The notes beneath the pieces are model-generated. The model made no database searches and was not told the origin of the DNA. It saw nothing but the letters and a program-made list of their open reading frames with translations. DNA of 64,000 nucleotides from Alloyangia mangrovi (GTDB lineage: Bacteria; Pseudomonadota; Alphaproteobacteria; Rhodobacterales; Rhodobacteraceae): contig NZ_NTHN02000018.1 of NCBI RefSeq assembly GCF_002300555.2, forward strand, positions 1 to 64,000, written 5' to 3'. Positions 31,225 through 42,396 of the stretch are shown piece after piece (positions within the stretch are counted from its first letter, which is position 1; the number at the start of each line of letters is the position of its first letter). A program made the position numbers and the translations under genes.

Positions 31225-32166
31225 ATGGACACCGCATCTTCCCTCCGCATCGACCGCCGCTCGGCGCTGCTGCTGCTCACCCTGGCAACGCTCTGGGGCA
31301 GCACCTTCCTTTTTGCCGAGATCGCCCTGACCGAGCTTAGCCCGATGCAGGTGACACTGCATCGGGTGGTGATCGCGGCCTTCGCGCTCTGGCTGGTGCT
31401 GCGCCTGCGCGGGGTCAAGGTGCCGCGCTCGCCGCGGCTCTGGGGCGCCTACCTTGTCATGGGCGCGCTCAACAATGCCTTGCCCTTCACGCTGATCTTC
31501 TGGGGCCAGACCCATATCGAGAGCGGGCTGGCGGCGATCCTCAACGCCTCTACCGGCGTGCTGGGCGCGGTGGTGGCGGGGCTATTGCTGCGTGACGAGC
31601 GGCTGAGCTGGCGCAAGCTGGCTGGGGCGGGGCTCGGGCTCGCGGGGGTGGCAGTGGTGATCGGGCCGGACCGGCTGACCACGCTCGATCCGCGCAATCT
31701 GGGGCAGGGCGCGGTTCTGCTGGCGGCGCTGAGCTATTCGCTGGCCAGCGTCTGGGCCAAGCTGAGGCTCGCCGGGCAGCCGCCGCTGGCCAATGCCTTC
31801 GGCATGCTGGCGGGCGCTGCGGTGATCATGCTGCCGCTGGTGATCTGGCAGGACGGGCTGCCGACACTCGATTATTCGCCACGCGTCTGGGCCGCGTTGC
31901 TGGGCCTGTCGCTGCTGGCCACGGCGCTGGCCTTCATCCTCTACTTCGCGATCCTCGCCCGGGCGGGCGCGGCGAACCTGATGCTGGTGACGCTGCTGAT
32001 CCCGGCCTTCGCGATCCTCATCGGCCGCGTCGTCCTGGGCGAGCAGCTTCCGGCGGGGGTCTACCTCGGCCTCGCGATCATCGCCTCCGGGCTTGTGGTG
32101 ACCGACGGGCGGCTGCTCGCGCGTCTGCGACGCAAGCCGCCCGCCGAAGAGCCTCAGGTGCCGTAG
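31225..32166 (+). CDS. DMT superfamily (EamA) transporter
   Basis: 313 residues with about ten membrane helices in two EamA repeats (about 15-140 and 155-290). Typical starts are ALLLLTLATLWGSTFLFAEIAL and VLLAALSYSLASVWAKLRL. Members export amino acids, metabolites or drugs, and the substrate cannot be told. ATG 31225 has an AAAGGGAGGG site. Its last 13 nt overlap the end of the convergent DegT gene, so there is no room for a terminator between them. Confidence 0.87.
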   Translation: MDTASSLRIDRRSALLLLTLATLWGSTFLFAEIALTELSPMQVTLHRVVIAAFALWLVLRLRGVKVPRSPRLWGAYLVMGALNNALPFTLIFWGQTHIESGLAAILNASTGVLGAVVAGLLLRDERLSWRKLAGAGLGLAGVAVVIGPDRLTTLDPRNLGQGAVLLAALSYSLASVWAKLRLAGQPPLANAFGMLAGAAVIMLPLVIWQDGLPTLDYSPRVWAALLGLSLLATALAFILYFAILARAGAANLMLVTLLIPAFAILIGRVVLGEQLPAGVYLGLAIIASGLVVTDGRLLARLRRKPPAEEPQVP

Positions 32167-33365
32167 GCACGCAGCGGACCCATCACGCTTTCGGCGGCGC
32201 CCACCAGCACCTCGGCGACAGCCTCGCACTCTGCGAGGCTGAGCCGCGCAGGCAGGCGGGTGTCGCAGGCACGCTCGAGCATGGCGCGGGTCCGGGGCAG
32301 CTCGGGCACCTCCTCGAGGAAGCGCCAGTTCCAGAAGGCGCGGGCATTGTCGGACGAAAGCCCGAAGAGCTGCACCTTCACGCCGCCCGCCTCGGCGGCA
32401 GAGAGGAAAGCGCGCATCTCCTCGGCGCTCATCCCGGTGAGGTTGAACTGCAGCGAATCCGGCGCGCGCTCTTCCGGAACCAGCTTCTCGGGCACCTCGA
32501 TCCAGGGCGAGCGGTTGAGGATCGCCGCCACATGGTCATGGTTGCGCCGGCCGTCGCGGACACGGCGCGCGACATGCGCCAGCTGCGGGCGGATCACCGC
32601 GGCGGCAAGGTTCGACAGGCGCAGGTTGTAGAGCGGCAGCCGGTTCTGCCAGCGGGCAAAGGCCTCTTCCAGATCGGACGTATTGTCCCCCGGTGCCATG
32701 TGTTTCTTCCAATTGTGCTCGTAAGCGCCCGAGAGGATCACCGCCCGCGCCACGAACTCGGCGTCGTCGGTGATCAGGATGCCGCCCTCGCCGGCGTTGA
32801 CCAGCTTGTAGCTCTGGAAAGAGAAGCAGCCGACCCGGCCCAGCGTGCCGATGTTGCGCCCCGCCCATTTGGTGCCGAGCGAATGCGCGGCATCCTCGAT
32901 CACAGGCAGCCCGCGCGCGTCGCAGAGCGTCAGGATCGCGTCCATGTCCGAGGTGTGGCCGCGCATGTGGCTGATGATCACCGCGGCGACACCGTCCAGC
33001 TTGGCCTCGAAGTCGGCGATGTCGATGCGGTAGTTCTCGCCGACCTCGCAGAGCACCGGCACGCAATCCGCATGCACGATCGATGAGGGCACGGCGGCAA
33101 AGGTGAAGCCGGGGATGAGAACCTTGGCGCCGCGCGGCAGGTCCAGTGCCTTGAGCGACAGGAAGAGCGCCGCCGAGCAGCTCGACACCGCCAGCGCGTA
33201 TTTGGCACCCAGCAGCGCCGCGAACTCGCGCTCGAGCAGGGCGACGGGCGCATCCTCGGGCGCGGTGTAGCGAAAGAGATCGCCCGACAGCAGCAGGCGG
33301 TCGATCTCGGCGCGAGCCTCCTCGGGAATGGGCTCCGCATCATGCATGTTGGGAAGGCTGCTCAT
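32154..33365 (-). CDS. DegT/DnrJ/EryC1/StrS family aminotransferase
   Basis: 403-residue PLP enzyme of the sugar aminotransferase family. VSSCSAALFLSLKAL binds the cofactor phosphate, GFTFAAVPSSI follows, EDAAHSLGTKW holds the Asp (158) for the pyridine nitrogen, and FSFQSYKLVNAGEGG holds Lys187 for the internal aldimine. Such enzymes aminate keto-sugars for LPS, glycans or antibiotics. This one stands alone, with no nucleotide-sugar genes nearby, so amination of another substrate is equally possible. It is separated from puuB by a terminator. Confidence 0.88.
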   Translation of the reverse strand: MSSLPNMHDAEPIPEEARAEIDRLLLSGDLFRYTAPEDAPVALLEREFAALLGAKYALAVSSCSAALFLSLKALDLPRGAKVLIPGFTFAAVPSSIVHADCVPVLCEVGENYRIDIADFEAKLDGVAAVIISHMRGHTSDMDAILTLCDARGLPVIEDAAHSLGTKWAGRNIGTLGRVGCFSFQSYKLVNAGEGGILITDDAEFVARAVILSGAYEHNWKKHMAPGDNTSDLEEAFARWQNRLPLYNLRLSNLAAAVIRPQLAHVARRVRDGRRNHDHVAAILNRSPWIEVPEKLVPEERAPDSLQFNLTGMSAEEMRAFLSAAEAGGVKVQLFGLSSDNARAFWNWRFLEEVPELPRTRAMLERACDTRLPARLSLAECEAVAEVLVGAAESVMGPLRAYGT

Positions 33366-33479: not shown

Positions 33480-34781
33480 TCAGACCCCGAGTCGATCGCG
33501 CAGCGCGTACCAGCTCATCGCCAGCGCCAGCAGCGGCGCGCGCAGCGCCGCACCGCCGGGGAAGCCGGGCACCGGCAGGGCCGCCATGGCGTCGAATCCC
33601 GCGGACTGCCCGCGCACCGCCTCGGCCAGCAGCCGCCCCGCGTGCACCGCGGTGCCGACCCCGTGGCCGGAGTAGCCCGAGGCGGTCAGCACGTTCGGCC
33701 CGAGCCGGGCCAGCAGCGGCAGGCGCTTCATGGTGATCGCCAGCGTGCCGCCCCAGGCGTAGTCGAGGCGTACGTCCTCGAGTTGCGGGAAGATCTCGAG
33801 CATCGGCTTGCGCACCAGCGCCTTTATGTCGTCAGGGAAGCGGTAGCCGTAGCTTTCGCCGCCGCCGAACAGCAGCCGCCCGTCGTGGCTGAGCCGGAAG
33901 TAGTTCACCACGAACTTCGAATCCGCCACCGCCACGTCGCGGGTCAGCACTTCGCGGGTGCGCTCTCCGAGTGGCTCGGTGGCGACGATGAAGTTGTTGA
34001 TCGGCATCACCTTTGCCGCGACCTTCGGCTCGAGCCCGCCGAGATAGCCGTTGCAGGCAAAGATCACCTGTCCGGCGCGCAGGGTGCCGCCGTTGGTGTG
34101 GATGAGCACCTCGCGGCCCTGCTCGACGCTTTCCACGTGGCTGGTCTCGTAGATCCGCGCCCCTGCGTCGGCGGCGGCCTTCGCCAGCCCCAGCGCGAAG
34201 CGCAGCGGGTGCAGATGCGCCGCGCCCATGTCCAGCACCCCGCCGCGGTAGTCGGGCGAGGGGCAGAGCGCGTGAAAGGCGTCGCGGTCCAGGGCCTCGA
34301 TCTCGTAGCCGTATGTCTCGCCCATGTGCGCGGCGTAGTGGTGCAGGTGCTCGACGTCGCCCTTGTTCGAGCCGCACCAGGCGACGCCGTCGCGCAGGTA
34401 GCAGTCGATCTCGTGCTTGGCGATCAGCTCGCGGCAGAGCCCCTTGGCCTCCTCGCCCAGATCCCACAGCACCCGGGCGTTGCCCTCGCCGACCATCTTC
34501 TCGAGGCTGACCTGGTCCTGCCGCTGCCCCGAGCCAAGCTGTCCGCCGTTGCGCCCCGAAGCGCCGAAGCCGACCCGATGCGCCTCGAGCAGCGCTACGT
34601 CCAGCCCCGCCTCGGCGAGGTGCAGCGCCGCCGAGAGCCCGGTGTAGCCGCCGCCGATGATGCAGACATCGGCGCGGGCCTCGCCCTCGAGCTTGGGGAA
34701 GGGCGGCAACATCTCCGAGGTCGCCGCGTACCAGCTCTGCGGATACTCGCCGCGCCGGTCGTTGGAGAACAGCAGGTCCAT
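33480..34781 (-). CDS. FAD-dependent oxidoreductase, PuuB-like
   Basis: 433 residues of the DAO/GlpO-fold family. DVCIIGGGYTGLSAALHLAEAG (about 38-59, split in family terms as GxGxxG) binds FAD, GASGRNGGQLGSGQ follows, and TASGYSGHGVGTAVHAGRLLAEAV is the C-terminal flavin-binding end. The best-known relative, PuuB, oxidises gamma-glutamyl-putrescine. Neighbouring genes on the same strand are two glutamine-synthetase homologues (PuuA-like) and a class I amidotransferase (PuuD-like function), which supports a gamma-glutamylated amine route. The amine itself is not determined by sequence. An 86-nt gap with dispersed-element copy 5 separates it from the upstream synthetase. Confidence 0.85.
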   Translation of the reverse strand: MDLLFSNDRRGEYPQSWYAATSEMLPPFPKLEGEARADVCIIGGGYTGLSAALHLAEAGLDVALLEAHRVGFGASGRNGGQLGSGQRQDQVSLEKMVGEGNARVLWDLGEEAKGLCRELIAKHEIDCYLRDGVAWCGSNKGDVEHLHHYAAHMGETYGYEIEALDRDAFHALCPSPDYRGGVLDMGAAHLHPLRFALGLAKAAADAGARIYETSHVESVEQGREVLIHTNGGTLRAGQVIFACNGYLGGLEPKVAAKVMPINNFIVATEPLGERTREVLTRDVAVADSKFVVNYFRLSHDGRLLFGGGESYGYRFPDDIKALVRKPMLEIFPQLEDVRLDYAWGGTLAITMKRLPLLARLGPNVLTASGYSGHGVGTAVHAGRLLAEAVRGQSAGFDAMAALPVPGFPGGAALRAPLLALAMSWYALRDRLGV

Positions 34782-34797
34782 CAGGCGTCTCCCGTGG

Positions 34798-34843
34798 TTT
34801 CTTCTAGGCGGAAATATCCCGGGGGTTCGGGGGCAGCGCCCCC
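34798..34843 (-). repeat. dispersed 3'-end element, copy 5
   Basis: Read on the minus strand: GGGGGC-GCT-GCCCCC (34829-34843), then CCCCCGGGATATTT-CCG-CCTAGAAGAA (34800-34825). It follows the glutamine-synthetase homologue ending at 34868 and may reduce read-through into the PuuB-like gene. Confidence 0.85.
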
Positions 34844-34867
34844 GATACCTTGGGCGTTAGGGCGTGC

Positions 34868-36232
34868 TCAGACGTTGAGCAGCAGGTGCTCGCGTTCCCA
34901 GGGCGAGATCACCGCGAGGAACTCCTCGTACTCTGTGCGCTTCACGATCGAGTAGACTCGGGCAAACTCCGGCCCCAGCACCTCGTGCAGCTTGGTGGCC
35001 TCGTCGAAGAGGTCGAGCGCCTGGCCGAGCACGCGCGGGATGTCACCCTCGCCCTCGTAGGCGTCGCCGCGGAACTGCTTGGAGGGGCGGCGCTCCTCCA
35101 TCAGCCCCAGGTAGCCGCAGGCCAGCGAGGCGGCGATGCCGAGGTAGGGGTTGCAGTCCATTCCGGCGAGCCGGTTCTCGACGCGCCGGGATTCCGGCCC
35201 AGAGATCGGGATGCGGATGCCGGTGGTGCGGTTGTCGCGGCCCCACTCGAGGTTGATCGGCGCCGCGCTGTCGCGCACGTAGCGGCGGTAGCTGTTCACG
35301 TAGGGCGCCAGCACCGCGATGGCCGCGGGAAGATAGGCCTGCAGCCCGCCGATGAAGTGGAAGAAGGCGTCGGTCTCTCCGCCGGCGGGGCCGGAGAAGA
35401 TATTGCGGCCGGTCTCGCGGTCCATCACCGAGTGGTGGATGTGCATGGCCGAGCCCGGCTCGTCGGCGATCGGCTTGGCCATGAAGGTGGCAAAGCAGTT
35501 GTGGCGCAGCGCCGCCTCGCGGATCAGCCGCTTGAAGTAGAAGATCTCGTCCGCCAGCTTCACGGGATCGCCGTGCTGGAGGTTGATCTCGAGCTGTCCG
35601 GCGCCGCCTTCCTGGGTGATGCCGTCAATCTCGAAGCCCTGCGCCTCGGCGAAGTCGTAGATGTCGTCGATCACCGGGCCGAATTCGTCGACCGCGGTCA
35701 TCGAATAGGCCTGGCGGGCGGCGGCGGGGCGGCCCGAGCGGCCCATCATCGGCTCGATCTCCTTGGCGGGATCGACGTTGCGCGCCACGAGGAAGAATTC
35801 CATTTCGGGCGCGACGATCGGATCCCAGCCCTGCTCCTCGTAGAGCTTGACCACACGTTTGAGCACGTTGCGCGGCGCGTTGGGGATCGGCTTGCCCTTG
35901 CGGTCGTAGGCGTCGTGGATGACCTGCAGCGTCCAGTCGGCGGTCCAGGGCGCGGCGGTGGCCGTGGTCATGTCGGGGCGCAGGATCATGTCGCGCTCGA
36001 TGAAGCCGACGGTCTCGTCGGCGGCTTCGCCCCAGTCGCCGGTGATGGTCTGGTAGAAGATCGACTCGGGCAGGTGGAAGTAATCCTGCCGGGCGAATTT
36101 CGACGCCGGCACCGCCTTGCCGCGGGCAATCCCGGGCAGGTCGGCGATCACGCATTCGACCTCGTCAAGCCGTCGCCCCTCCAGGTAGGCAGTGGCGGGG
36201 AGGGGAAGCTGGTTGGTCCAGTCTTCGGTCAT
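34868..36232 (-). CDS. glutamine synthetase family protein (gamma-glutamyl-amine synthetase type), copy 1
   Basis: 454 residues with the complete synthetase fold. VAPEMEFFLVAR holds the first metal Glu, QLEINLQHGD and GSAMHIHHSVMD carry metal ligands, and NLEWGRDNRTTGIRIP is the ATP/glutamate region. The adenylylation Tyr of GlnA is absent and the chain groups with GlnT/PuuA-type enzymes that join glutamate to amines. Its start overlaps the amidotransferase stop by 4 nt, so the two are co-translated. Together with the PuuB-like oxidase it suggests entry of an amine into gamma-glutamylation. The substrate is unknown. Confidence 0.88.
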   Translation of the reverse strand: MTEDWTNQLPLPATAYLEGRRLDEVECVIADLPGIARGKAVPASKFARQDYFHLPESIFYQTITGDWGEAADETVGFIERDMILRPDMTTATAAPWTADWTLQVIHDAYDRKGKPIPNAPRNVLKRVVKLYEEQGWDPIVAPEMEFFLVARNVDPAKEIEPMMGRSGRPAAARQAYSMTAVDEFGPVIDDIYDFAEAQGFEIDGITQEGGAGQLEINLQHGDPVKLADEIFYFKRLIREAALRHNCFATFMAKPIADEPGSAMHIHHSVMDRETGRNIFSGPAGGETDAFFHFIGGLQAYLPAAIAVLAPYVNSYRRYVRDSAAPINLEWGRDNRTTGIRIPISGPESRRVENRLAGMDCNPYLGIAASLACGYLGLMEERRPSKQFRGDAYEGEGDIPRVLGQALDLFDEATKLHEVLGPEFARVYSIVKRTEYEEFLAVISPWEREHLLLNV

Positions 36233-36915
36233 GCAAGAGCCTTTTGCTTGAAGAAATGTGCGAACTGATCGGCGAGGGCGCGCTGGTCGAGCGGGATGCC
36301 GAGGGCCTTGTCGGCGGCGTCGAGCCGCTCCTGCGGCACCACACCGGGGCCGCGGGTCTGGATCAGGGCGCGGGTGAAATCGTCATTGAACTCGGGGTGG
36401 GGCTGCACGGTGTAGGCGTGGCCCGGGTAGAGCAGTGCGGCGTAATCGCAGAAGTCGGAACTGGCCACGACCTCGGCGCCTTGCGGCAGCTCGGTGACCT
36501 GATCCTGGTGCCAGGCGTTGATCACCTTTTCCTGCCCGTCCTTGAAGCGGTAGGTGGTCGGCCCGACGACCCAGCCGCCGGGGTGTTTCTCGACCTTGCC
36601 GCCAAGCGCCTGCGCGATGATCTGGTGCCCGAAGCACACGCCGATCAGCGGCTTGCCGGCGGCGTAGATGTCGCGGATCAGCTGCTCGAGCGGCGGGATC
36701 CAGGCATGGTCCTCGTAGGCGCCGTGGCGCGAACCGGTGATCAGCCAGCCATCCGCCGCCTCGGGGCCTTCGGGGAACTCGCCGTTCACCACCGACCAGC
36801 TTTGGAAGTCGAACCCGTAGCCATCGAGGAGCCGGGCGAAGAATGCGGGGTATTCACCGGTCTCATCCGCGAGTTCCGCGGGGACGAGGCCGGTCTGCAG
36901 TATGCCGATTTTCAT
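36229..36915 (-). CDS. class I glutamine amidotransferase
   Basis: 228 residues. GVCFGHQIIAQALGG holds nucleophile Cys94, and QPHPEF holds His173 and Glu175, so the triad is complete. The sequence resembles GMP-synthase-like amidotransferases rather than E. coli PuuD. In this setting it probably hydrolyses a gamma-glutamyl bond (for example gamma-glutamyl-GABA or a related product) rather than supplying ammonia. That is inferred from its place between two synthetase homologues. It lies 63 nt downstream of copy 2. Confidence 0.85.
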   Translation of the reverse strand: MKIGILQTGLVPAELADETGEYPAFFARLLDGYGFDFQSWSVVNGEFPEGPEAADGWLITGSRHGAYEDHAWIPPLEQLIRDIYAAGKPLIGVCFGHQIIAQALGGKVEKHPGGWVVGPTTYRFKDGQEKVINAWHQDQVTELPQGAEVVASSDFCDYAALLYPGHAYTVQPHPEFNDDFTRALIQTRGPGVVPQERLDAADKALGIPLDQRALADQFAHFFKQKALA

Positions 36916-36978
36916 GGATCACACATGTGGTTTCTGGCCCGAAGGTAGTCTTGCCGCGACGGCGCGGCAAGGCCGTGG

Positions 36979-38322
36979 TCAGACCGTATCTAGGTAGATT
37001 TCGACCTGTTCGAGCGGCGAGAGCTCGGTCATGTAGAGCTGCTCCTGGCGCTTGGTCAGCAGCAGGTTGCGGATCAGTTCCTGCGGCAGGATGCGGGGCA
37101 TGATCTCGCTCGTCTCGAAGGCATCCATGGCTGAAACCCAGTCGGTCGGGATCAGCGGCAGGTCCTGCGCGTAGGCGTTGCCGGTGATCGGCTCGGGCGG
37201 CTCGATCTCGTCCTCGATGCCATTGAGCGCCGCGCCGAGGATCGTGGCCATCAGAAGATAGGGGTTCACGTCGCCGCCTGCCACGCGGTGCTCGATGCGC
37301 CGTGCCGCCGGGCTGCCCGAGGGCACGCGGATCGCGGCGGTGCGGTTCTCGTAGGCCCAGGAGATGCCGCAGGGGGCGTGGTTCTCGGGGATCAGCCGTT
37401 CGTAGGAATTGAGGTGCGGCGCGAAGATCAGCGTGCTGTCGTGCATCGCCTCGACGCAGCCGCCGATGGCATGGCGCAGCACGTCGGTACCCTTCGGCCC
37501 GCCATCGTCGAAGATGTTGTTGCCCTCCTCATCGAGCACCGAGAAGTGCATGTGCATGCCCGAGCCCGCGTAATCCTCGTAGGGCTTGGCCATGAAGGAG
37601 GCGGCAAAGCCGTGGCGGCGGGCCAGTCCCTTGAGCAGCATCTTGAACAGCCAGGCGTCATCGGCGGCGCGCAGCGCGTCGTCCTGATGCATCATGTTGA
37701 TCTCGAACTGACCCAGGCCCGCCTCGGAAATGGCGGTGTCGGCGGGGATGTCCATGTCCTCGCAGGCGTCGTAGAGATCGGTGAAGAAGATGTCGAAAGT
37801 GTCGAGTGCGCGGATCGAGAGCACCTCGGCGGCCTTTCGGCGCTTGCCCGAGCGCGGCGAGACCGGCACCTGCAGCTTCTTGGTGCTGTCGTCGATCAGG
37901 AAGAATTCCATCTCGAGCGCGACCACCGGGGTCAGCCCGTGGCGCTTGTAGCGGTTGACCACCTGCGCCAGCGCGTGGCGCGGGTCGCCCTCGTAGGGCT
38001 TGCCGCCCTCGTGGAACATCCAGATCGGCAGCAGCGCCGTCGGCGCCTCGAGCCAGGGCATCGGCACAAAGCCGCGCTCGGTGGGTTTCAGAACGCCATC
38101 GCGGTCGCCGGATTCGAAGACCAGCGGGCTGTCGTCGATGTCCTCGCCCCAGATGTCGAGGTTCAGCGCCGAGAAGGGGAAGCGGGTGCCGTCCTCGACG
38201 ACCTTGTGGGCGAAGCGGGAAGGGACGCGCTTGCCGCGCGGCTGTCCGTTGAGGTCGCATGCGGCCACACGGATGGTGCGGACCTGGGGGTTCTTGCGGA
38301 GCCAGGTTTTCGGGTCTGTCAT
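36979..38322 (-). CDS. glutamine synthetase family protein, copy 2
   Basis: 447 residues. VALEMEFFLIDD, GQFEINMMHQDD, GSGMHMHFSVLDEEG and YENRTAAIRVPSGS carry the metal and ATP residues. It is clearly a paralogue of copy 1 but well diverged, so the two may use different amines or form a mixed enzyme. The N-terminus (KTWLRKNPQVRTIRVAACDLNGQPRGKR split) has the G-x-x-R-G-K-R turn of GlnT/PuuA relatives. It appears to be the first gene of the catabolic operon. Its promoter should be in 38323-38457, between it and the ABC operon terminator. Confidence 0.88.
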   Translation of the reverse strand: MTDPKTWLRKNPQVRTIRVAACDLNGQPRGKRVPSRFAHKVVEDGTRFPFSALNLDIWGEDIDDSPLVFESGDRDGVLKPTERGFVPMPWLEAPTALLPIWMFHEGGKPYEGDPRHALAQVVNRYKRHGLTPVVALEMEFFLIDDSTKKLQVPVSPRSGKRRKAAEVLSIRALDTFDIFFTDLYDACEDMDIPADTAISEAGLGQFEINMMHQDDALRAADDAWLFKMLLKGLARRHGFAASFMAKPYEDYAGSGMHMHFSVLDEEGNNIFDDGGPKGTDVLRHAIGGCVEAMHDSTLIFAPHLNSYERLIPENHAPCGISWAYENRTAAIRVPSGSPAARRIEHRVAGGDVNPYLLMATILGAALNGIEDEIEPPEPITGNAYAQDLPLIPTDWVSAMDAFETSEIMPRILPQELIRNLLLTKRQEQLYMTELSPLEQVEIYLDTV

Positions 38323-38460
38323 TTTCTGTCCAAGAATTTGATCAAATTCAGCGTAGCGAGTCGGATGCAGGCTGGCAAGCGGGGGCAGGGGGGAAGAAAG
38401 CGAGTATTTTGGGAAAGCTGAAGGGATGGGCGGTGTCCGGCGCGGATCGCGGCAGGCAAG

Positions 38461-38491
38461 AAAAAAGCCGGGCGCGCAGGGCGTCCGGCTT
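38461..38491 (-). terminator. intrinsic terminator of the ABC importer operon
   Basis: On the minus strand AAGCCGG..CCGGCTT followed by a run of T (38461-38466 on plus is all A). It separates the importer from the synthetase genes, so the two blocks are transcribed separately. Confidence 0.85.
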
Positions 38492-38516
38492 TGGAATCTT
38501 GGTTCGCGGGCGGGGC

Positions 38517-39326
38517 TCAGCGCATCAGCAGCCGCGGGCGCATCCGCATCTTCTGGCGGCGCTCCTTCGGAAGGTGGCGGTTCAGCCGCTTGTTGATCAG
38601 CCCGAAGACCCCCACCACGCAGAGCGTCAGCAGGATGAAGAACCCCGCGAGGATCGGGTAGGGCACGAAGGGGTTGAAGGTCTTGTCGGCGAAGTAGTTG
38701 GCGTAATAGAGCGCGTCACCGCGCTGCTGCCAGGCCGGGAAGCCCGAGAAGAACACCAGCGTTGTTGCGTGGAAGAGGAAGATCGCCTCGTTGGTATAGG
38801 CGGGCCAGGCCAGCCGCAGCATGGTCGGCCAGACGATGCGCCTGAACCGGGGCCAGCCGGAGAAGCCGTAGGCATCCGCCGCCTCGACATCGCCTCGCGG
38901 CACCGACAGAAGCGCGCCGTAGAAGATCTCGCCGGTATAGGCCGCGGTATTGAGGAACAGCACCAGCGCCGCGCCCAGCCAGGCCGAGGTCAGCGGATCG
39001 AAGGCCGGCGACACGCTCTTGAGGCTGAGGAACAGGAAGTAGGCGAAGAAGAACTGGATGAACAGCGGCGAGCCGCGGAAGACGAAGATCACCCATTCCG
39101 CCAGCTTCCGCACCGGCGTGATCTTCGACGCCTTGCCGAGCGCCAGCGCAGTGGCCAGGAAGAAGCCGGTGACCAGCGCGACCACGCCGAAGTAGATGTT
39201 CCACAGCATGCCCGAGCCGATCAGCGTGACCTGCTGGCACAGGGTAAAATTGTCGCGCGGCAGCAGGCGCTCGCCGATGCCGATCGAGCGCAGCCCGTAG
39301 TCCGCGATGGTTTCCCAGCAGCTCAT
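38517..39326 (-). CDS. ABC transporter permease, polar amino acid type (HisM-like)
   Basis: 269 residues with about five membrane helices and the EAA-type loop DVEAADAYGFSGWPRFRRIVWP (about 145-166) that docks on the ATPase. It pairs with the permease encoded just upstream, whose gene it overlaps by 4 nt. The basic C-terminal tail (KRLNRHLPKERRQKMRMRPR) is cytoplasmic. Start ATG 39326. Family: histidine/lysine/arginine/ornithine importers. Confidence 0.9.
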   Translation of the reverse strand: MSCWETIADYGLRSIGIGERLLPRDNFTLCQQVTLIGSGMLWNIYFGVVALVTGFFLATALALGKASKITPVRKLAEWVIFVFRGSPLFIQFFFAYFLFLSLKSVSPAFDPLTSAWLGAALVLFLNTAAYTGEIFYGALLSVPRGDVEAADAYGFSGWPRFRRIVWPTMLRLAWPAYTNEAIFLFHATTLVFFSGFPAWQQRGDALYYANYFADKTFNPFVPYPILAGFFILLTLCVVGVFGLINKRLNRHLPKERRQKMRMRPRLLMR

Positions 39327-40204
39327 GAGGCCTTCCTCTGCGCTTCGCCGCCCATGGTGGCCTGCCCGTGGGTGAGCCGTTTCATGATGCGGTCCAGAAC
39401 GATTTCCGACACGCGGGTAAAGGCGAGGTAGAAGACCAGCAGCGCCAGGAAGTACCACATGCGCCAGTCGGGGTGCGGGTAGTCGGTGAACTTCGCGGTC
39501 TTCGCGCCGCCCAGCTCGCGCGCCCAGTAGACGATGTCCTCGACGCCCAGCAGGAACAGCAGCGGCGTCGCCTTGATCAGCACCATCCACAGGTTGGACA
39601 GGCCGGGCAGCGCATAGACCCACATCTGCGGCACGAGGATGCGCCAGAAGGTCTGGCGGCGGCTCATGCCATAGGCCTCGGCGGTCTCGAGCTGGGCGCG
39701 GGGCACGGCGCGCATGGCGCCGAAGAGCACGTTGGCGGCAAAGGCGCCGAAGACGATGGAGAAGGTCAGCACCGCGAGCGAGAAGCCGTAGGTCTCGTGC
39801 ACCCATTGGGCGGCGGTCGAGAGCGGCAGCTTGGCCTCGGGACAGACCACGAAATCATTGCCCTGGCGGATCGGCTGATCCCAGTCAGGGCATTTCACTT
39901 CGTGCCGTATCCACTCGAAGAACTGGTCGAGGGCGATCACGAAGAAAAGGAAGAAAGCGATGTCCGGCACGCCGCGCACGATGGCGATATAGGCCTTGCC
40001 GAGCCACGAGAGCGGCGGGAAGTGCGAGCGCGCCGCCATGGCGCCGCCGAAGCCAAAGGCCAGGGCGACCGGCGCGGTGATCGCCAGCAGCAACAGCACG
40101 GTGCCGACCGAGACATAGATCGACAGGTGCTTGCCCGTGGTCAGGTAGCAGCTCAGCCATGCCAGGCCGTCGATCGCGTTGGGGTCGGTACACCAGGAGA
40201 ACAT
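39323..40204 (-). CDS. ABC transporter permease, polar amino acid type (HisQ-like)
   Basis: 293 residues. It has a membrane helix near 25-50 (SVGTVLLLLAITAPVALAFGFGG), then a longer outside loop rich in Cys and Pro (VKCPDWDQPIRQGNDFVVCPEAKLP, split) not usual in HisQ, and the coupling loop LETAEAYGMSRRQTFWRILVPQ (about 200-221). The long loop explains the extra 60 residues over E. coli HisQ. It is translationally coupled to the second permease. Confidence 0.9.
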   Translation of the reverse strand: MFSWCTDPNAIDGLAWLSCYLTTGKHLSIYVSVGTVLLLLAITAPVALAFGFGGAMAARSHFPPLSWLGKAYIAIVRGVPDIAFFLFFVIALDQFFEWIRHEVKCPDWDQPIRQGNDFVVCPEAKLPLSTAAQWVHETYGFSLAVLTFSIVFGAFAANVLFGAMRAVPRAQLETAEAYGMSRRQTFWRILVPQMWVYALPGLSNLWMVLIKATPLLFLLGVEDIVYWARELGGAKTAKFTDYPHPDWRMWYFLALLVFYLAFTRVSEIVLDRIMKRLTHGQATMGGEAQRKAS

Positions 40205-40254
40205 GTCGTATCAGCCGTCGAGGGGGCCGCAGGGGCCCCCTCGTCTTGGGGCGC

Positions 40255-40977
40255 TCAGAACGAGGCGCCGATTTCCCATTTTTCGAGCAGCGCGTTGAGC
40301 GAGCCGTCGTCTTTCATCGACTGGATGGCCGCGTCGAACTTCTCTTTCAGCGCGGTGTCGCTCTGGCGCAGACCCATGCCGACGCCGCCGCCGATCAGCT
40401 CGTCCTTGTCGAGCAGCATCACGTCGTCGCTCTCGTCGGCCACCGGCACGAGGTAGCTCTTGTCTGCGAGCACCGCGTCCGCCTCGCCGTTGCGCACGGC
40501 GGCGACGGTCTCGTCGGGGGTGGCGTATTCGACCAGCGTCGCGCCCATCTCGGCGACGAAGGCCGCCTGGATGGTGCCGGTCTGCGCGGCGATCACCGCG
40601 CCTGCGAGGTCGATGCCGTCATTGCCGGTCAGCACCAGGTAGGCCGAGGGATCGGGTTGGGTGTAGTTCTGGGTGAAGGCGATGACCTCCGCACGGTCGG
40701 GCGTGATCGACATGCCGGCCATGATGGTGTCGTAGTTGCCCGACACGAGGTTGGGGATGATCGAATCCCAGTCGTTGGTCACCCACTCGCAGGTCACCTC
40801 GGCGCGGGTGCAGAGCTCGTCGCCCAGCTCGCGCTCGAAGCCGTCCACTTCACCCTTGTCGTTGATGAAGTTGTACGGAGGGTAGGCGCCCTCGGTGCCC
40901 ATGCGCACGACGTCCTGAGCCAGCGCCATCGAGGCGGTCATGGCCAGCGCGGCGGTGCCGAGAAGGATGGATTTCAT
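40255..40977 (-). CDS. ABC transporter substrate-binding protein (HisJ/ArgT-like)
   Basis: 240 residues with a signal peptide (KSILLGTAALAMTASMALAQD, cleaved near 21). The mature part has the cluster-F amino acid binding fold: YPPYNFINDKGEVDGFERELGDEL, then DWDSIIPNLVSGNYDTIMAGMSITPDRAE (split). The acidic and aromatic residues of cationic amino acid binders are present in part. A cationic amino acid or an amine is a reasonable ligand given the neighbouring amine catabolic genes, but this is inference. It is second in the importer operon. Confidence 0.9.
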   Translation of the reverse strand: MKSILLGTAALAMTASMALAQDVVRMGTEGAYPPYNFINDKGEVDGFERELGDELCTRAEVTCEWVTNDWDSIIPNLVSGNYDTIMAGMSITPDRAEVIAFTQNYTQPDPSAYLVLTGNDGIDLAGAVIAAQTGTIQAAFVAEMGATLVEYATPDETVAAVRNGEADAVLADKSYLVPVADESDDVMLLDKDELIGGGVGMGLRQSDTALKEKFDAAIQSMKDDGSLNALLEKWEIGASF

Positions 40978-41027
40978 TGGAGTTGCTCCCTGGTTAGGTA
41001 GATGTCCGGGGTGGTCTCTGCCGCCCG

Positions 41028-41810
41028 TCAGACGTGGCTGGTCGACCGCAGGAAGCCCTGCAGCCGTTCCGATTTCGGGGCGCCGAACAGCTCGGCCGGG
41101 GCGCCTTCTTCCTCGATGAGCCCCTTGTGGAGGAACACCACGTGATCGCTCACGTCATGGGCCATCTTCATGTCATGGGTGACGATGATCATGGTGCGCC
41201 CTTCGGCGGCGAGATCCTTGATCACCTTCACGACTTCCTGCTCGAGCTCGGGATCGAGCGCCGAGGTCGGCTCGTCGAAGAGCAGCGCCTCGGGTTCCAT
41301 GCAGAGCCCGCGTGCGATCGCCGCGCGCTGCTGCTGGCCGCCCGAAAGCTGCGCCGGCCAGGCGTCGGACTTGTCGCCGATGCCGACCTTGTCGAGGTAG
41401 CGCCGGGCTGCGGCCTCGACCTCGTCGCGCGGGCGGCCGAGCACGTGGATCGGCGCTTCCATGACGTTCTGCAGGATGGTCATATGGGCCCAGAGGTTGA
41501 ACTGCTGGAACACCATCGACAGGTTCGTGCGGATGCGCAGCACCTGCTTGGGATCGGCGGGGCGGCGGTGGTGGCCGCTGCCGTGCCAGCGCACCGGCTC
41601 GCCCTTGAACAGGATCTCGCCCTGCTGGCTGTCCTCGAGCAGGTTGCAGCAGCGCAGGAGCGTCGACTTGCCGGAGCCCGACGAGCCGATCAGAGAGACC
41701 ACGTCACCACGCTTGGCGGTGATGCTGACCCCCTTGAGCACTTCGAGCTCGCCGTAGGCCTTGTGCAGATCGCGGATCTCGATGACTGGAGCTTGGGCTG
41801 GATCGGTCAA
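41028..41810 (-). CDS. ABC transporter ATP-binding protein (HisP-like)
   Basis: 260 residues. Walker A GSSGSGKST (about 37-45), Q-loop VFQQFNLW, signature LSGGQQQRAAIARGL, Walker B LLFDEPTSALDPE and the switch VTHDM. The HisP-type loop with inserted Arg/His residues (VRWHGSGHHRRPADPKQVL) is present. It drives the two permeases encoded downstream and is first in the operon. The spacer 41811-41955 should hold the promoter. Confidence 0.94.
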   Translation of the reverse strand: MTDPAQAPVIEIRDLHKAYGELEVLKGVSITAKRGDVVSLIGSSGSGKSTLLRCCNLLEDSQQGEILFKGEPVRWHGSGHHRRPADPKQVLRIRTNLSMVFQQFNLWAHMTILQNVMEAPIHVLGRPRDEVEAAARRYLDKVGIGDKSDAWPAQLSGGQQQRAAIARGLCMEPEALLFDEPTSALDPELEQEVVKVIKDLAAEGRTMIIVTHDMKMAHDVSDHVVFLHKGLIEEEGAPAELFGAPKSERLQGFLRSTSHV

Positions 41811-41955: not shown

Positions 41956-42396
41956 TCAGCCCGCGGCTTCCACCCGCTGCCGGGCCAGCGCCGAATCCCT
42001 GTCGTTGATGCCCAGAAGGTTCGACACCAGCCGAAGCACCGCGTCTTCCTCGTCGTCGCGGGTGCCGTCGGCGAGCGCCACCTGCCACAGCGCCTCGATC
42101 ACCGCGATGCGATCCTCATAAGCGACGGCGTCCTTGATCGCCCGGGTGAAGCGCACGGTGTCGGGGGCCTCGGCCTCCAGCGCCTCGGCATCACGGCGCA
42201 GCCGCGCGGCCTCGAAGGGCGAGAGCCCGTAGCGCGTGGCGGCGATGCGGTCTATCCGGTCCTGTTCGGACTGGTCGTAAGTCTCGTCGGCGCGCGCGAC
42301 GCGCACCAGCAAAGCGCAGAGCGCCAGCCGCGCATCGGCGTCGGGCAGGAGCTCGGGGCCGGGATCGACCAGCCGTTTGAGGAAATCAGCGAACAT
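41956..42396 (-). CDS. TerB-like family protein, copy 1
   Basis: 146 residues of the TerB (tellurite-resistance B) helical family. Two pseudo-repeats each carry an acidic loop typical of TerB metal binding: VRVARADETYDQSEQDRID (about 31-49) and WQVALADGTRDDEEDAVLR (about 104-122). Housekeeping TerB-like genes are common without any ter operon, and none is present here. A second, more diverged TerB-like gene lies just upstream. Confidence 0.85.
   Translation of the reverse strand: MFADFLKRLVDPGPELLPDADARLALCALLVRVARADETYDQSEQDRIDRIAATRYGLSPFEAARLRRDAEALEAEAPDTVRFTRAIKDAVAYEDRIAVIEALWQVALADGTRDDEEDAVLRLVSNLLGINDRDSALARQRVEAAG

Follow-up and report, generated by a model that had tools for sequence, protein, structure and literature searches.

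Gene organization of the locus

The window is a 64,000-nucleotide stretch of DNA from Alloyangia mangrovi (contig NZ_NTHN02000018.1, here C79, of a 5.53-Mb genome). Between positions 33480 and 41810 it carries genes for two glutamine synthetase-like enzymes, termed GS1 and GS2, together with genes for an amidotransferase, an oxidase and an amino acid importer. The eight genes described in an earlier interpretation made from the letters alone, termed the sequence-only reading, are all present as open reading frames (ORFs) at the coordinates given below (8/8). All are in the minus strand: first come the ATPase, binding protein and two permease genes, then a terminator, and after it GS1, the amidotransferase gene, GS2 and the oxidase gene. 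The set is discussed here as what is quite likely the enzyme core of polyamine (putrescine, cadaverine and probably spermidine) catabolism by gamma-glutamylation, with dispersed genes joined in a regulon by a palindrome of a GntR-family regulator.

The importer genes are those of an ABC ATPase of the HisP type (41028–41810; HisP profile 332.6 bits, cut-off 466), a periplasmic binding protein of the lysine/arginine/ornithine (LAO) type (40255–40977) and two permeases, of the HisQ/ArtQ type (39323–40204) and the HisM type (38517–39326), each recognised by ORF and profile. The NCBIfam matches to HisP, the LAO-family binding protein and the HisM/ArtQ-type permeases score below the model cut-offs. 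An intrinsic terminator in the same strand (38464–38492) ends the importer operon. It is followed by a perfect palindrome, GAATTTGATCAAATTC, at 38334–38349, which has no strand of its own, lies 11 bp ahead of the GS1 start and is a predicted GntR operator.

The enzyme genes are GS1 (36979–38322) and GS2 (34868–36232), both predicted gamma-glutamyl-amine synthetases, a class I glutamine amidotransferase (36229–36915), a predicted gamma-glutamyl hydrolase, and a PuuB-type FAD oxidase (33480–34781). Profile matches are to the glutamine synthetase catalytic domain twice (329.6 and 317.7 bits), class I GATase and FAD-dependent DAO. GS2 and the amidotransferase gene overlap by 4 bp, as do the two permease genes; the GS1–amidotransferase and GS2–oxidase gaps are 63 bp and 86 bp. 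These gap sizes fit a single predicted operon of GS1, amidotransferase, GS2 and oxidase. No PuuR-type gene was seen in the cluster.

Conservation of the set was followed in 80 named loci, which are the best 80 of at least 589 relatives and are dominated by close relatives. Counted by identity cut-offs and with short contigs included, the amidotransferase is present in the same strand in 79 loci, the oxidase in 71, GS1 in 61 and the binding protein in 55. Because of this same-strand co-presence, the association of the genes is well beyond chance.

The two synthetases

GS1 shares 35% identity with GS2, and each is about 35% identical to Escherichia coli PuuA. The GS2 of the window is 99% identical to that of Salipiger mangrovisoli. 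In alignments to E. coli GlnA that included 12 relatives of GS1 and 14 relatives of GS2, both synthetases retain E129, E131, E212, E220, H269, R321, R339, R344, E357 and R359. The ammonium pocket residues D50, S53, Y179 and E327 are replaced in both, as they are in PuuA; at three of these four positions GS1 also differs from GS2. The genome's own GlnA retains every residue checked. Loss of D50, Y179 and E327 has been reported for PauA7 and GlnA3, and used as an argument that these are polyamine ligases, in a study that also reports GlnA3 activity on putrescine (PMC5403932). With a nearly complete catalytic set and a lost ammonium pocket, GS1 and GS2 are predicted to be polyamine-type gamma-glutamyl synthetases. 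Scores against the NCBIfam gamma-glutamylputrescine synthetase NF045547 are 195.7 bits for GS1 and 171.4 for GS2, below the cut-off of 650, and therefore neither is filed as that equivalog.

A FastTree phylogeny of 187 sequences, rooted by the authors on the synthetase of contig C77, groups GS1 with PuuA (support 0.986) and places GS2 in a separate clade (0.973). The GS1 alignment in one relative (genome G028; L070, 10545–11839) falls in two overlapping same-strand pieces, as if the gene were disrupted.

Relatives of GS2, counted at E ≤ 1e-110, are found in 71 of 299 sampled Pseudomonadota genomes, at 89 places. Twenty of these places were chosen for examination by the authors, 17 of them outside the family of the source organism; another polyamine-type gene is nearby in 20/20 and a PotF homologue in 13/20. 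Four members of the family (G026, G032, G034 and G248) have a GS2 homologue beside Pot genes. The fullest example is G032 (L074), where amidotransferase, agmatinase (386 bits, cut-off 302), PuuB, GS1-like, GntR, PuuC, oxidase, GS2, second GntR and PotFGHI genes, with part of a PuuE-like gene, lie in one 14-kb stretch. G248 (L324) has a similar stretch without a PuuC match. In G026 (L068), PotFGHI, GntR, GS2, a SpuC-type gene and an oxidase are found together, and in G034 (L076) GS2 adjoins PotFGHI.

Oxidase, amidotransferase and the aldehyde step

No protein of the genome matches PuuB better than the oxidase does (43% identity, 350 bits, with full-length homology; the next match has 178 bits), and this single enzyme is common to GS1 and GS2 in the operon. 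L-pipecolate oxidase was considered as an identity and rejected: AmaA is the top NCBIfam match, at 204.6 bits against a cut-off of 600, and the alignment with E. coli PuuB shows 42% identity.

The amidotransferase carries a Cys-His-Glu motif (C94, H173, E175). Its nearest NCBIfam profile is the PRK05665 amidotransferase (150.1 bits, cut-off 309), which we take to resemble Pseudomonas PauD2. Because the motif is present but E. coli PuuD gives no blastp match to the protein at E 1 and the Peptidase_C26 match is weak (30.3 bits), it is probably a non-orthologous candidate for the PuuD step, and may work like PuuD.

An aldehyde dehydrogenase gene of the PuuC type was held to be missing by the sequence-only reading, which proposed a search for a distant copy. 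For the contig this holds, since all 27 PuuC matches of the genome lie on contigs other than C79. For the genome it need not: the candidates include a PuuC homologue of 52% identity on contig C85 and an aldehyde dehydrogenase on contig C55 that sits behind the same palindrome as GS1.

A palindrome ahead of dispersed polyamine-type genes

At up to two mismatches, the palindrome of the window is found at five places in the genome and the reversed control at none. An exact 12-bp core, ATTTGATCAAAT, occurs four times in the 5.53 Mb, each time just ahead of polyamine-type genes, and the reversed pattern is absent. The four core sites precede GS1 (C79), PotF (contig C22), the aldehyde dehydrogenase on C55 and a third PuuA-like synthetase (C77). 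For PotF and the C55 gene a later possible start was taken, as the longest frames begin at the site. The fifth place (C11, two mismatches) was not counted; it falls within a predicted reading frame and is some 600 bp ahead of a glutamate-dehydrogenase-like gene.

On C22, the gene for a 211-amino-acid GntR-FCD protein has PotFGHI on one side and a class III aminotransferase gene on the other (PRK07480, 760 bits, above cut-off), and it is flanked on both sides by sites that match exactly or nearly so. The GntR DNA-binding domain of the protein (50.4 bits) and FCD domain (81.1 bits) both score above cut-off. The Pot operon is assigned by profile, with 463.6 bits for PotF and 450.7 for PotG, short of the respective cut-offs of 636 and 613. 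The sequence-only reading had a cationic amino acid importer standing in for the Pot importer, a proposal that does not survive these Pot-type genes, found behind the palindrome of GS1.

The C77 synthetase has its own palindrome, an aldehyde dehydrogenase and a 4-hydroxybutyrate-dehydrogenase-like iron alcohol dehydrogenase (L014, G000:C77, 5615–12665). These genes are perhaps a second amine route. The same stretch appears, by reading, to encode a TRAP transporter.

Conservation of the palindrome and the GntR gene

The 12-mer is present in 20/20 genomes of the genus examined, the source genome included, with 1 to 6 copies each. The reversed pattern is found in 0/37 genomes in the search that covered the genus and other families. 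In other genomes of the family, 42 of at least 64 sites were surveyed; these were the authors' choice, with some GS1 sites skipped and five genomes left out. Thirty-four of the 42 adjoin GS1 (7), PotF/GntR/SpuC (12), a C55-type aldehyde dehydrogenase (9) or a second class III aminotransferase (6), the last being PRK06105 in the one scanned (753.6 bits). Near this operator-linked aminotransferase, two loci carry histone-deacetylase-domain genes (L205, 1794–2948, 247.8 bits; L216, 4288–5316, 256.9 bits), which by resemblance we take to be perhaps acetylpolyamine amidohydrolases. In several genera (L092, L095, L109, L110, L113, L124 and L125), the interval from GS1 to the amidotransferase gene contains a second TTTGATCAAA site, at about 9.29–9.30 kb.

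Site and regulator gene occur together. Among 110 genomes of the family, 58 have a GntR orthologue (at least 184 bits) and 58 have the 12-mer; 48 have both, 10 have each alone and 42 have neither (Fisher p 1.6e-11, a value that overstates the support, as the genomes are not independent). In 29/30 of the best family loci the GntR gene has a site with at most one mismatch no more than 400 bp away, and in 23 it has one on both sides; these 30 loci have 55 site matches in 108,507 bases and no reversed matches. In family loci totalling 2.48 Mb, some overlapping and some chosen by their sites, there are 133 exact 10-mers (119 distinct contexts) and no reversed ones. This adjacency and co-occurrence support the C22-type GntR protein as the predicted regulator acting at the palindrome. 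With the four core sites, the 29/30 GntR loci argue that the genes which appeared to be missing, for PuuC and the Pot importer, are probably elsewhere in the genome under one predicted regulator.

Outside the family, no sites at up to two mismatches are found in L306, L311, L312 or L313; L315 has two, one with one change and one with at most two. In a genome of another family (G050; L176, 657–1513) a GntR-FCD gene with GATTTGATCAAATC just upstream points away from a TonB-receptor-like gene beside it. Other GntR regulators may thus use the palindrome as well.

The lysine-type importer and its neighbours

The sequence-only reading described a HisJQMP-type importer of the cationic amino acid class with a terminator of its own, and both parts of that description are borne out. 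The terminator has an 8-pair stem (38492–38464) followed by T residues, with −18.6 kcal/mol over a 46-nucleotide stretch and a z of −2.9; 2/200 shuffles fold equally well. A consensus scan missed it because of the scan's loop limit of 8. The binding protein shares 69% identity with 3i6v of Silicibacter (Ruegeria) pomeroyi, a structure with the title 'in complex with ly...', the ligand of which is read here, by assumption, as lysine. A model of the window protein (pLDDT 78) superimposes on 3i6v with Z 22.1 and a root mean square deviation of 4.6 over 215 residues.

In the LAO protein, R77, S72 and D161 are taken here to hold the alpha-carboxylate and alpha-amine, with Y14 and F52 as a sandwich. 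The equivalents of R77, S72, D161, Y14 and F52 in the binding protein are R95, S90, D172, Y32 and W70, and 12 orthologues share all of them. In place of S69, S70 and T121 the binding protein has A, G and I. Because of the likeness to 3i6v and the retained alpha-carboxylate and alpha-amine residues, the protein is expected to have a cationic amino acid, not a polyamine, as its ligand.

The spacing between the HisM-type permease gene and GS1 varies among the relatives. Operators and gaps were surveyed in the 61 of the 80 named loci that have GS1 and at least 150 bp upstream, the other 19 being dropped; gene starts and ends were extrapolated from alignments, which left 52 gaps measurable and nine not. 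The gap is shorter than 70 bp in 28/52. An operator precedes GS1 in 1/28 of these, and in 20/24 of the loci with a gap of 70 bp or more. As operator presence tracks the gap, there are two states: one in which importer and enzymes are contiguous, and one in which the enzymes stand under their own operator. The Loktanella and Paracoccus albicereus types (L141, L153) are examples of the contiguous state. In that state it remains plausible that importer and pathway are functionally linked, for example by decarboxylation. A site ahead of the importer ATPase gene is found in 1/53 named loci and is absent from the window. The importer of the window is thus predicted to be a lysine-type amino acid importer that lies outside the predicted regulon in this genome.

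Linkage of importer and enzymes is not general. In seven Paracoccus loci (L146, L150, L151, L154, L155, L160 and L161), GS2, amidotransferase and oxidase genes are found without an importer in the stretch, and in G028 roughly 128 kb separate the importer from the enzyme genes. No match to PotF, PotH, PuuC, the C55-type aldehyde dehydrogenase or GntR is found in either strand of the 80 named loci, 55 of which have at least 9 kb on each side. PotG matches there are uninformative, since they are just as many as the matches to the ATPase of the importer itself.

Two other genes flank the set. After the oxidase is a DegT/DnrJ-type aminotransferase gene (32154–33365, minus strand), with a same-strand homologue of at least 60% identity in 40/80 named loci, and ahead of the importer ATPase gene is a TerB-domain gene (41956–42396, minus strand), with a homologue of at least 50% identity in 53/80.

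Proposed pathway and its meaning

Gene content, the position and conservation of the sites and the residue patterns are direct observations; substrates, enzyme activities and GntR binding are deduced from them. Polyamines would enter via the PotFGHI importer of C22, and GS1, GS2 or both would ligate glutamate to a primary amine with ATP. The PuuB-type oxidase would then form a gamma-glutamyl aldehyde, which would be oxidised by an aldehyde dehydrogenase encoded elsewhere, either that of C55, with the common operator, or the PuuC homologue of C85. The amidotransferase would release glutamate together with GABA or 5-aminovalerate, and class III aminotransferases would take the products onward. 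The GntR-family regulator of C22 would bind the AATTTGATCAAATT sites at its own locus and tie the dispersed genes together. The lysine-type importer might supply this route indirectly, if the lysine, ornithine or arginine taken up is decarboxylated.

Gamma-glutamylation is a known pathway; here it is dispersed and apparently rewired by a GntR regulon. As far as found, in a literature that is only partly searchable, a dispersed layout tied together by a GntR palindrome is undescribed: no description of the operator or of a GntR polyamine regulator of Rhodobacterales was found among the papers listed. A 2010 study by Mou on spermidine genes of R. pomeroyi may already have described their induction. 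Polyamines are part of the organic nitrogen used by marine Roseobacter-type bacteria. With its genes scattered, the pathway looks incomplete at any single locus. The common palindrome explains the apparent gap, predicts a regulator and is a direct means to find the gene set in many genera. There is also a natural contrast among lineages: in some the enzyme genes adjoin a lysine-type importer, and in others the same genes are separated from it.

Alternative explanations

The retained LAO contact residues, the likeness to 3i6v and the short permease–GS1 gaps raise the question of whether importer and enzymes are one unit, where lysine, ornithine or arginine would be taken in and decarboxylated, and the cadaverine, putrescine or agmatine formed would be gamma-glutamylated beside a Pot-fed route. 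The cluster would in that case serve chiefly to turn amino acids into diamines for breakdown. Labelling shows that lysine degradation in Phaeobacter inhibens proceeds partly through cadaverine (PMC5653290). The cluster itself encodes no decarboxylase; the remaining candidate in the genome is an Orn/Lys/Arg decarboxylase (OKR_DC, PF01276, 481 bits) on contig C111, unlinked. A PF02784 match on C22, considered as an ornithine/lysine decarboxylase, proved to be the diaminopimelate decarboxylase LysA (400 bits, above cut-off), and a second PF02784 match (C147) is named by no NCBIfam profile at cut-off. The terminator and palindrome between importer and GS1 in the window, the rarity of sites ahead of the ATPase gene, the Paracoccus stretches that lack the importer and the distant importer of G028 also argue against a single unit, which is considered possible but rather doubtful. 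A related and very improbable reading applies where the importer is contiguous: GS1 would act directly on imported lysine or ornithine, and the oxidase would deaminate the resulting omega-gamma-glutamyl amino acid; in the Salipiger type, terminator and GntR operator would have broken the coupling and moved the enzymes into the polyamine regulon. If true, gamma-glutamylation would in those lineages serve the breakdown of cationic amino acids and not that of polyamines.

The two synthetases may also divide substrates within one pathway, for example diamines versus spermidine or aminopropyl ends. This would explain why two synthetases are found with one oxidase and one hydrolase. It agrees with their separate clades and with several loci (among them L107, L133 and L144) where GS1 is missing and GS2, amidotransferase and oxidase are retained, but nothing in the window neighbourhood separates GS1 from GS2, and its chances are put at about even. 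That GS1, GS2 or both prefer a different primary amine, such as agmatine, ethanolamine or a monoamine, is improbable. The seven PauA enzymes of Pseudomonas aeruginosa seem to differ in substrate (PMC9397018), and GS1 and GS2 are themselves unlike in the ammonium pocket. Set against this is the palindrome or neighbourhood held in common with PotFGHI, SpuC and PuuC-type genes. Monoamines were considered and rejected for the window cluster, as a GlnT-like gene with a sarcosine-oxidase-beta-like neighbour (678.8 bits, above cut-off), presumably a methylamine-type set, is separate, on contig C100.

The sequence-only reading had recognised an amine gamma-glutamylation cluster of two synthetases, amidotransferase and PuuB-like oxidase in one orientation, and ORFs, profiles and residue patterns agree with it. 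Its suggestion of a route for a different amine is not supported, with PuuC-type and Pot genes elsewhere in the genome and with G032 and G248 holding the same enzyme families and PotFGHI in one stretch. Agmatine may feed the route in G032, given the agmatinase in that stretch, but it would do so as a putrescine source. Nothing was found that points to ethanolamine or isopropylamine-like substrates, for which no dedicated search was run.

Several observations count against a polyamine pathway under GntR control as set out above. With respect to the operator, just 27/61 surveyed loci have it ahead of GS1, and the wiring of GS1 is therefore lineage-specific. The 12-mer is also found in 6/14 genomes of other families of the class, and in the three such loci that were read (L176, L178 and L179) no polyamine gene adjoins it. 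Of the 42 surveyed family sites, eight are beside or within other genes; a single conserved position in a dipeptidase gene (M19, from a profile scan of one copy) accounts for three of these eight, and the reversed control occurs once each in 2/110 family genomes (G070 and G132).

With respect to the enzymes, G020, G032 and G248 have two oxidases, the one closest to PuuB beside a GS1-like gene and the window-type one beside GS2, and thus GS1 may be without its usual oxidase partner in the window. The lack of a PuuD match has been mentioned. The C55 aldehyde dehydrogenase, with just 36% identity to PuuC, might instead belong to the transaminase branch, and the PuuC homologue of C85 is absent from the operator sites. 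N264 of GlnA is replaced in both synthetases (A/P), and by A in PuuA, perhaps through a slip in the alignment; it is reported as retained in PauA7 and GlnA3 (PMC5403932). The family GS2 homologues beside Pot genes are 55–58% identical to the window GS2, and closer copies are found elsewhere in G026 (71%) and G248 (78%). The Pot-adjacent homologues are therefore not simple orthologues, and the two types may differ in substrate. The reversed-control matches, the class background and the oxidase pairing leave the polyamine interpretation slightly weaker.

Comparison with known systems

The E. coli Puu system (puuADRCBE) shares with the window PuuB (42%), PuuA (35% to each synthetase) and the same predicted chemistry. 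It differs in that here PuuC and transport are encoded elsewhere, the synthetase is doubled, PuuD is apparently replaced and no PuuR-type gene accompanies the enzymes. Published work on the MocR regulon concerns another type of regulator (PMC5320631).

For Ruegeria pomeroyi, experiments support potFGHI (SPO3466–3469) as an importer of cadaverine, putrescine and spermidine, since mutants are reported to grow more poorly on all three (PMC10130141). The C22 operon is likewise Pot-type, a likeness drawn from profile type. The kinship of the window binding protein with 3i6v, from the same organism, is one of sequence and fold.

The doubled synthetase, which the sequence-only reading had treated as unusual, is not odd, as the spu layout of Pseudomonas (spuABCDEFGH-spuI) likewise has two synthetases, spuI and spuB, and a class I amidotransferase. 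The comparison is one of layout and gene names, and some of the spu names are those used in PMC10606097. Loci L306, L308 and L321 have a spu-like layout, with PotF–I genes, SpuC, a GS2 homologue (50–51%) in the SpuB position and a PuuD homologue beside a divergent PuuA-type gene. In the source genome, by contrast, transporter and transaminase are on another contig, so that no single locus joins them to the two synthetases; the amidotransferase has no PuuD match, the oxidase is inside the operon, and a GntR regulator with its own operator is predicted.

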